Shown piece by piece: positions 13,192 to 42,494 of a stretch of 52,559 nucleotides of DNA; position 1 is the first letter of the stretch; each line of letters opens with the position of its first letter. Both the position numbers and the translations under genes were made by a program. This DNA is from Candidatus Bathyarchaeota archaeon (GTDB taxonomy: Archaea > Thermoproteota > Bathyarchaeia > Bathyarchaeales > Bathycorpusculaceae): assembly GCA_029907545.1 (NCBI GenBank), contig JARYLR010000010.1, positions 1-52,559 on the forward strand. Direction: 5' to 3'. The notes below the pieces were generated by a model that saw nothing but the letters and a program-made list of their open reading frames with translations, was not told the origin of the DNA and searched no databases.

Positions 13192-13295
13192 GCCGAGGTA
13201 GCTCAGCCTGGGAGAGCGCTCGACCCAGTTACTTGTCGTGGCTGAGGGCGAAGCTGAAGACCGAGTTGTCGCCGGTTCAAACCCGGCCCTCGGCA
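13192..13295 (+). tRNA. tRNA-Phe (GAA) with a 30-base intron at position 30/31
   Basis: Acceptor stem GCCGAGG/CCTCGGC, discriminator A, T arm GCCGG-TTCAAAC-CCGGC, 3' half of the anticodon stem CCGAG, loop CTGAAGA with anticodon GAA. The 5' half of the anticodon stem is broken after CTCG (13219-13222). Removing 13223-13252 joins CTCG to GCTGAAGA and restores a perfect CTCGG/CCGAG stem; no other cut does. The mature RNA has 74 bases. CCA is not encoded. A TATA-like element (ACTTTTAAGC) lies about 40 bases upstream. Confidence 0.93.
13223..13252 (+). other. Intron of tRNA-Phe
   Basis: Thirty bases interrupt the 5' strand of the anticodon stem. Inside, CAGTTAC pairs with GTGGCTG (two G-U pairs) around a five-base loop, giving the intron-side helix expected of a bulge-helix-bulge substrate. 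Introns at this site are non-canonical in archaea, where 37/38 is standard. Confidence 0.85.
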
Positions 13296-38268: not shown

Positions 38269-38398
38269 AAACCCGCCAAAAAACCATCGTGGCAAATCGA
38301 TTTTTGAACTTTTTAAAAGTCTTAGCAACTATCATCTTGGTCTGAAAACTTAATAGGGCAAACCTATATTCGAAACACTTGAAAAAGCAGAAGCACGT

Positions 38399-38489
38399 GG
38401 ATCCGTAGCGCAGCATGGATACGCGTCAAGCCATAGAGCGCGTCGGCCTTCTAAGCCGAAAGTCCTGGGTTCAAATCCCAGCGGATCCG
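38399..38489 (+). tRNA. tRNA-Arg (TCT) with a 16-base D-loop intron
   Basis: Acceptor GGATCCG/CGGATCC, discriminator G, T arm CTGGG-TTCAAAT-CCCAG, anticodon arm TCGGC-CTTCTAA-GCCGA (anticodon TCT, Arg). CCA is encoded at 38490-38492. The D region is 16 bases too long. Removing 38421-38436 gives GCGC-AGCATGGATA-GCGC, a normal D arm, and a 75-base tRNA. Confidence 0.93.
38421..38436 (+). other. Intron of tRNA-Arg in the D loop
   Basis: ATGG just before the intron pairs with CCAT inside it, forming the four-pair central helix of a bulge-helix-bulge substrate, with three-base bulges ATA and AGA cut after the second base. The cut could be shifted by one base with the same product. Non-canonical position; very short. 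Confidence 0.75.
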
Positions 38490-38546
38490 CCACTCTTTTA
38501 ATCAGCCAGCCTGCTGATCGCCCTGCCAAAGCTCTGGGTTACATGG

Positions 38547-39215
38547 CTAACAGTGCGGTTTATTTATAACTGTCTTAATGGTGTCGCTTCCCTGAAAAGG
38601 TGAGCCATCAGCCAGCGTACCGGTCAAAGTCAAGGTTACTGACCTGAATTTGCACGAGGTGGCGTACTGCTTCTGAATCAACCCTACTACGGCTTGCCTG
38701 TCAAACTTCACAATAAGCACGTATCTTCCGTCACCGTCGCAGTCTGCAAAGCAAAGGAATCTGTAGTCTACTGAAATCGAGCGGTTCAGCATAAGCGAAG
38801 AAACATCAATGTCAAAGACGCTGTATCCTTCTGGAAGACTAATTACACACGTAACCCATTTTCCGCGACTTTTCAGACTTAAGCACCGTGGATAAATCCT
38901 TATTTTGGCACAGATCGCAGCTTCCGATTTCTCGCCGAAGCAGCTGGACACGATGTAGACGTCAAGCATGTCGATTCTCTTGTCTTGATTGACGTCTGCT
39001 TCACTGTTCCATCTGGAATGACCCGGATAGGAGCCCACTGCTAATGTCACTTCGCACACATCTTTAAGATCTACTTTTCCGTCATGATTCACATCGCCAG
39101 TAAGTCTCTCGCCAATGCCGATTGGTTGAGCGTCTGATGCATACATGAGTGCACCGGCAACCATGATTATCAGGGCTAATGGAATTATTCTCTGCAACTT
39201 CTCTTTCTCCAACAA
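38547..39215 (-). CDS. Secreted protein with a dockerin-like domain
   Basis: The 222-residue protein has a signal-like N-terminal helix (about 11-27) and two calcium-binding repeats GDVNHDGKVDLKDV (about 40-53) and ADVNQDKRIDMLDV (about 73-86), the type I dockerin pattern. A beta domain of about 120 residues with 'KSRGKWVTCVISLPEGY' follows, as in other archaeal proteins with cohesin-like companions. Dockerins join surface proteins; no cohesin gene is in this window. It is divergent from the GfcR-like gene. Confidence 0.75.
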   Translation of the reverse strand: MLEKEKLQRIIPLALIIMVAGALMYASDAQPIGIGERLTGDVNHDGKVDLKDVCEVTLAVGSYPGHSRWNSEADVNQDKRIDMLDVYIVSSCFGEKSEAAICAKIRIYPRCLSLKSRGKWVTCVISLPEGYSVFDIDVSSLMLNRSISVDYRFLCFADCDGDGRYVLIVKFDRQAVVGLIQKQYATSCKFRSVTLTLTGTLADGSPFQGSDTIKTVINKPHC

Positions 39216-42008: not shown

Positions 42009-42494
42009 GTGAAAATCTCCAAAGAAGAAGCCGAACGAGAACTTTTCGAAAGAGGATACGGCACTCCAGCAGGAAAAACATTTTTACTAGGTTTCCATGA
42101 AGCCCTATACCTGCAAGACAAGGGAATTCTTAGAGTCGAGAGCAGCAAACACAAAGAGGTAAGCTTCCGAGAGCTTCTTAAGGAATACGAGAGCGTGGAT
42201 GAGAATGCTTGGGCTAAATACCTAGTCTACCGTGACCTAAGAAACCGTGGCTACGTAGTTCGAGAAGGCTTTGGGAAAGGCATAGACTTTCGTCTATATG
42301 AACGCGGCGAATACAGTAAAGACACTGCAAAATATCTGGTTCTAAGCGTTCAGGAGGGAAAGCCCATGCTTCTCGGAGATCTGGTCAGCGCCTTGAAGCA
42401 GTGTCAAAGTTTGAAGAAGGAGCTTGTTTTAGCTGCCATGAACCGAAGAGGCGAAATAGTTTACTATTTTGTTTCACAATTTAATGTAAACTAG
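42009..42494 (+). CDS. endA: tRNA-splicing endonuclease homologue lacking the catalytic His
   Basis: The protein has the EndA C-terminal domain: 'YLVYRDLRNRGYVVREGFGK' and 'GIDFRLYERGEYSKDTAKYL' with catalytic Tyr97, and 'LKKELVLAAM' with the conserved Lys. Where Methanocaldococcus EndA has E-H-S-V-Y-L-V this protein has D-T-A-K-Y-L-V: Thr106 replaces the catalytic His. The listed start is GTG 42009, but the N-terminal domain seems to begin earlier: in frame upstream lies 'TELHIRGLLTRKGV', matching the first strands of other EndA proteins, and ATT 41931 has a perfect GGTGAT five bases before it. It may be the structural subunit of a heterotetrameric enzyme. Confidence 0.85.
   Translation: MKISKEEAERELFERGYGTPAGKTFLLGFHEALYLQDKGILRVESSKHKEVSFRELLKEYESVDENAWAKYLVYRDLRNRGYVVREGFGKGIDFRLYERGEYSKDTAKYLVLSVQEGKPMLLGDLVSALKQCQSLKKELVLAAMNRRGEIVYYFVSQFNVN

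Follow-up and report, generated by a model that had tools for sequence, protein, structure and literature searches.

A predicted intron in the D loop of tRNA-Arg(UCU)

The window, which is the whole stretch of 52,559 nucleotides of bathyarchaeal DNA analysed here, contains a tRNA-Arg(UCU) gene with 16 extra bases in the D loop. The question raised by this locus is whether these bases are an intron that is removed from the precursor or a lasting part of the tRNA. The gene reads GGATCCG TA GCGC AGCATGGAT ACGCGTCAAGCCATAG A GCGC G TCGGC CTTCTAA GCCGA AAGTC CTGGG TTCAAAT CCCAG CGGATCC G CCA, in which the 16-base insert ACGCGTCAAGCCATAG sits after AGCATGGAT and before A GCGC. The following features were assigned to the locus.

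38364..38370, + strand: putative TATA-like promoter element CTATATT, about 30-35 bases upstream of the gene
38399..38492, + strand: intron-containing tRNA-Arg(UCU) with encoded CCA (sequence read directly; ARAGORN 38399-38492; Rfam tRNA 38423-38481)
38408..38411, + strand: 5' strand of the D stem, GCGC (sequence and fold)
38415..38418, + strand: 5' arm of the BHB central helix, exon ATGG, positions 17, 17a, 18 and 19 (RNAfold; pairing conserved in relatives)
38419..38421, + strand: 5' bulge ATA, predicted cut AT|A after 38420 (sequence, fold, cutting rule of PMC4307357)
38421..38436, + strand: predicted 16-nt intron ACGCGTCAAGCCATAG at tRNA position 20a/21 (sequence, fold, introns at the same position in relatives, intronless G021 and G081)
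38431..38434, + strand: 3' arm of the BHB central helix, intron CCAT (RNAfold; 210/224 pairs in 56 distinct genes)
38435..38437, + strand: 3' bulge AGA, predicted cut AG|A after 38436 (sequence, fold; AAA or AGA in most relatives)
38438..38441, + strand: 3' strand of the D stem, GCGC (sequence and fold)
38496..38499, + strand: T4 run just after CCA, a possible transcription stop

The tRNA body occupies 38399-38489, with the anticodon TCT at 38450-38452 and the encoded CCA at 38490-38492. It had been proposed from the letters alone that removal of 38421-38436 leaves a textbook D arm and a 75-base tRNA. Indeed, the gene without these bases folds into a perfect cloverleaf followed by the encoded CCA. 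The acceptor stem is GGATCCG/CGGATCC, the D stem GCGC/GCGC with the loop AGCATGGATA, the anticodon stem TCGGC/GCCGA with the loop CTTCTAA, and the T stem CTGGG/CCCAG. ARAGORN detects the unspliced gene but leaves it unnamed ('tRNA-???', 94 bases), and the match to the Rfam tRNA model starts only at the D arm (38423-38481, 32.2 bits). Both results are expected for a D-loop insert, and annotation may thus miss this gene. No second Arg(UCU) gene was found in the genome by a pattern search or among the 36 Rfam tRNA matches read with ARAGORN, so that this single-copy gene must work. The TATA-like element and the T4 run suggest that the gene forms its own transcription unit. A TATA-like element is also present upstream of the orthologues in G005 and G040 in a MAFFT alignment of the flanks, which was used solely for the upstream element of relatives other than G001, the closest genome, of the same genus as that of the window. 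Directly downstream, the opposite strand encodes a protein of 222 aa (38547-39215, -) in which Pfam recognises a type I dockerin domain (4.8e-9), and an archaeal SRP RNA is also present in the window.

Another tRNA gene of the window (13192-13295, +) is called tRNA-Thr(CGT) with an intron by ARAGORN, and it becomes a good tRNA-Phe(GAA) (...CTCGA CTGAAGA CCGAG...) when 30 bases of the anticodon loop are left out. The window would then hold another noncanonical intron, with its border placed approximately at 32/33. The tRNA inventory of the genome (G000), made by an Rfam search and ARAGORN on the fetched loci, holds only 36 tRNA matches at 97% completeness. Several expected isoacceptors are not among them, and some of these may be hidden by other noncanonical introns.

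Borders and structure of the intron

In the minimum-energy structure of the full precursor (RNAfold), ATGG and CCAT are paired within an intact cloverleaf, and ATA and AGA are unpaired. This is the four-pair helix with two three-base bulges that the sequence-only reading had described as a minimal bulge-helix-bulge (BHB) motif, and the helix is kept in relatives. The border is ambiguous by one base, as 38421 and 38437 are both A and removal of 38422-38437 gives an identical product. Archaeal endonucleases cut between residues 2 and 3 of the bulge (PMC4307357), and by this rule the intron is 38421-38436 and not 38422-38437, which agrees with the borders first read. The D stem GCGC/GCGC serves as the outer helix, set off from the core by AGC (or by GC and CGC, with one bulged A). 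The helix inside the intron is minimal, with at most 1-2 pairs possible in a 9-nt loop, so that the motif is relaxed and bulge-helix-loop-like, and strictly not a full hBHBh'. The insert region alone folds no better than shuffled sequence (z +0.66), a single-sequence z-score being uninformative here. Support for the intron reading is comparative and does not come from single-sequence folding.

Orthologues lacking the insert, whose comparison had been named as a check, fix the intron borders independently of the BHB model. At the predicted borders, G021, a genome of the same family, and G081 read GGATA|GCGC, as in the predicted spliced product, with no insert, and the same junction is found in G033, G055 and others. 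The gene of G021 reads GCGCAGCTTGGATAGCGCGTCGGCCTTCTAAGCC, which is the exact spliced form of genes such as that of G005. Even within one genus, g34, the insert is present in G073 and G087 and absent in G081.

Conservation among Bathyarchaeia

Of 257 Bathyarchaeia genomes, 153 matched a pattern in which 0-30 additional bases may separate positions 20a and 21, and a reversed control pattern matched none. Inserts of 13-28 bases are found at the same position in orthologues of many Bathyarchaeia families. In the family to which the genome belongs, about 37 intron-bearing and about 41 intronless Arg(UCU) genes were counted by hand, with G024 and three g27 genomes added to the pattern rows. Taken over all archaea, the D loop is a minority site for introns. 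The earlier description of such introns as rare does not hold within Bathyarchaeia, where the insert is common and occurs in nearly half of the same-family genomes with a readable Arg(UCU) gene.

For the helix, the four exon bases at positions 17-19 were set against the four intron bases before the last two in 57 genes with an insert of such size, including that of the window. At least three of the four pairs form in all 57 genes; the helix is complete in 43, and in the other 14 a single pair is non-standard. Counted over 56 distinct sequences, the true register gives 210 of 224 possible pairs, whereas a shift of the register by 1-6 bases gives 51-129, and none of 20,000 permutations was as good. 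One gene of the 57-gene table, that of G142 (f11), looks like the 22/23 type, and the result is unchanged without it. The outer pair of the central helix is T-A in 20 genes, C-G in 16, A-T in 6 and T-G in 5. Since T-A and C-G both occur within family f7, and A-T and T-A within f1, paired change at this position probably took place more than once. Kinship inflates counts of this kind, but the effect of the register, together with differing pairs in several clades, would be hard to obtain from chance pairing in one ancestor. The intron bodies are unalike and free to vary between 13 and 28 bases in length, and their last six bases keep CC(A)N plus 2. The insert is not due to chance, since 57 genes of this and related genomes have it at one position and with one helix. 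An intron would have been contradicted by orthologues that share the long D loop but show no trace of cleavage; what was found is that the insert-bearing orthologues keep the BHB helix through paired changes.

In families f5 and f9, the matches were tRNA-Arg(CCU) and other tRNAs, and they are thus uninformative on the Arg(UCU) intron. G031 has two Arg(UCU) genes (L170 and L171), each with a D-loop intron, of differing sequence, and apparently also a 37/38 intron; this assembly is 8% contaminated, and two strains are possible. In several Bathyarchaeia families (L012, L016, L017, L030, L042 and L037), the anticodon loop of tRNA-Arg(UCU) is CCTCTAA, with C at position 33, where U is near-universal in tRNAs.

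Splicing machinery and proposed processing

Two genes for subunits of the splicing endonuclease (EndA) are present in the genome, one on contig C33 and one in the window, 3.5 kb from tRNA-Arg(UCU).

42009..42494, + strand: structural (beta-like) subunit of tRNA-splicing endonuclease, 161 aa (Pfam PF01974 2.6e-23, PF02778 3.7e-11; alignment to 1a79)

The 185-aa protein from C33 has its nearest counterparts in crystallised catalytic subunits from Aeropyrum, Sulfolobus and Pyrobaculum (2.6e-38, 3.4e-37 and 1.1e-29, respectively), with the best score, 2.6e-38, to 3p1z_B. Of the active-site residues it retains His and Lys, and Tyr is replaced by Phe, a replacement shared with the aligned Aeropyrum chain. 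It also has an extra loop segment, 'YGKPLGIAKPKIPEFTVP', with a KP motif, which aligns with the sequence of Aeropyrum, Sulfolobus and Pyrobaculum. In the protein from the window, aligned to the Methanocaldococcus enzyme (1a79), the Tyr and His at positions that we take to have these active-site roles are replaced by Lys and Thr, and the subunit is therefore regarded as beta-like. The RtcB ligase is encoded in the genome as well (1.5e-176). In Aeropyrum, the loop with its lysine confers broad substrate specificity (PMC6379350), and the loop lysine of the C33 protein is predicted to be its equivalent. From the two separate genes and their homology, the subunits are predicted to form an (alpha-beta)2 enzyme with broad specificity, a kind linked to noncanonical introns (PMC4090602, PMC6379350).

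We propose, with a probability of about 0.95, that this locus is a functional tRNA-Arg(UCU) gene in which positions 20a and 21 are separated by a protein-spliced (BHB) intron of 16 nt, with EndA as the cutting enzyme and RtcB as the ligase. Cleavage, ligation and their order are predicted here from what was found in the genomes, namely the sequence, the pairing, the covariation, the intronless orthologues and the enzyme genes. In the precursor, CCAT of the intron would pair with ATGG of the exon, which holds the conserved G18 and G19, to give a 4-bp helix between two 3-nt bulges. The heteromeric (alpha-beta)2 endonuclease of the genome would then cut at AT|A and AG|A, and RtcB would join the exons. 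Removal of the intron would free G18 and G19 for the contact between the D loop and the T loop of the mature tRNA.

The precursor does fold with an extended D-arm hairpin, so that one could also imagine a tRNA that retains the insert, with a permanently enlarged D arm and an extra hairpin. However, G18 and G19, which are needed for the tRNA elbow, would be tied up in such a tRNA. Moreover, close relatives lack the insert exactly at the predicted borders, the conserved part is only the BHB core with bulges of two bases plus A, and the enzyme of the genome appears to be of the broad-specificity type, all of which make retention very improbable. A pseudogene or an assembly error is less probable still: although the assembly is fragmented (55 contigs), all stems are intact, the gene is the only one for Arg(UCU) found in the genome, and the same gene structure appears independently in dozens of assemblies of other projects.

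Distribution and origin of the intron

A stricter pattern was applied to several hundred genomes sampled from the phylum, and outside the class it matched only G421 (f51). A scan of named genomes gave scattered matches in other archaea, several of them with a different border. Matches in Thaumarchaeota, Nitrososphaerales, f11 and L115 have the border at 22/23 by eye and were not counted as the same intron. Those in a gammaproteobacterium (L103) and in Mesorhizobium (L118) are chance matches of the collection-wide pattern and not D-loop introns of the Arg(UCU) kind.

It is plausible that one D-loop intron has occupied this single Arg(UCU) site since early Bathyarchaeia, that it stayed spliceable through compensatory change with positions 17 to 19, and that it was lost precisely many times, so that its presence varies within a genus. 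Instead of a class ancestor and repeated precise losses, several gains by transposition of introns between tRNA genes, as proposed for Thermoproteales, could have produced the present distribution. Such repeated gain would fit the dissimilarity of the intron bodies between genera, the patchiness even within the genus of G073, G087 and G081, and the similar inserts in unrelated archaeal lineages. Genus g27 also has a different insert of 44-49 nt at the same spot. We nevertheless consider repeated gain rather unlikely, because many families within and beyond the order of the window agree almost exactly in intron position, intron length and 3' end, which fits common descent with loss, and because of the single match outside the class. 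Short intron bodies also drift fast, so that their dissimilarity says little. The g27 insert (L187/G027, L212/G057 and L220/G043) folds into a long hairpin, with the repeat ACGGAT on its flanks. Its central helix has at most 2 bp, which would fit a very relaxed splice site or else an insertion of recent date.

Relation to known tRNA introns

The archaeal D-arm BHB intron is already a well-known type. Introns at positions 20/21 and 22/23 of the D arm are listed for archaea (PMC4090602), and D-arm introns, those at 20/21 among them, are on record for Crenarchaeota. A survey of 217 archaeal genomes with tRNAscan-SE 2.0 counted 673 noncanonical introns (PMC8450103). For the class-wide, patchy recurrence of the Arg(UCU) intron, or for the tRNA introns of Bathyarchaeia at all, no description was found in the literature searched, whose coverage is incomplete. 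With the present case, a class of uncultured archaea gains a well-supported D-loop intron, and the closely related genes that have or lack it provide a natural series for the study of intron gain and loss and of co-evolution of BHB introns with exons.

Canonical introns at 37/38 of archaeal tRNAs share the enzyme and the BHB logic with the Arg(UCU) D-loop intron. They differ from it in position, and the D-loop intron pairs with G18 and G19 and not with the anticodon. Some relatives appear to carry both types (for example L009/G024, L027, L028 and L050). The D-arm inserts in tRNA-Arg(UCU) of Thaumarchaeota/Nitrososphaeria and other archaea (for example L098, L101 and L107) lie in the same arm of the same tRNA. 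However, their borders fit 22/23 by eye, and the CC(A)N register of the helix is absent from them; they are probably separate events from the intron of Bathyarchaeia.

The nearest likeness is to the noncanonical D-arm introns of Sulfolobus tokodaii tRNA-Glu, which are cleaved in vitro by recombinant EndA, and of Aeropyrum pernix tRNA-Thr(UGU) (PMC4307357). These have in common with the Arg(UCU) intron the D-arm position, the short length and a BHB-type core with 3-nt bulges. Introns of that type are cut between bulge residues 2 and 3 by a broad-specificity (alpha-beta)2 endonuclease, and the same is predicted for the Arg(UCU) intron, which differs from them in the isoacceptor, Arg UCU, in the class, Bathyarchaeia, and in that its splicing is a prediction.
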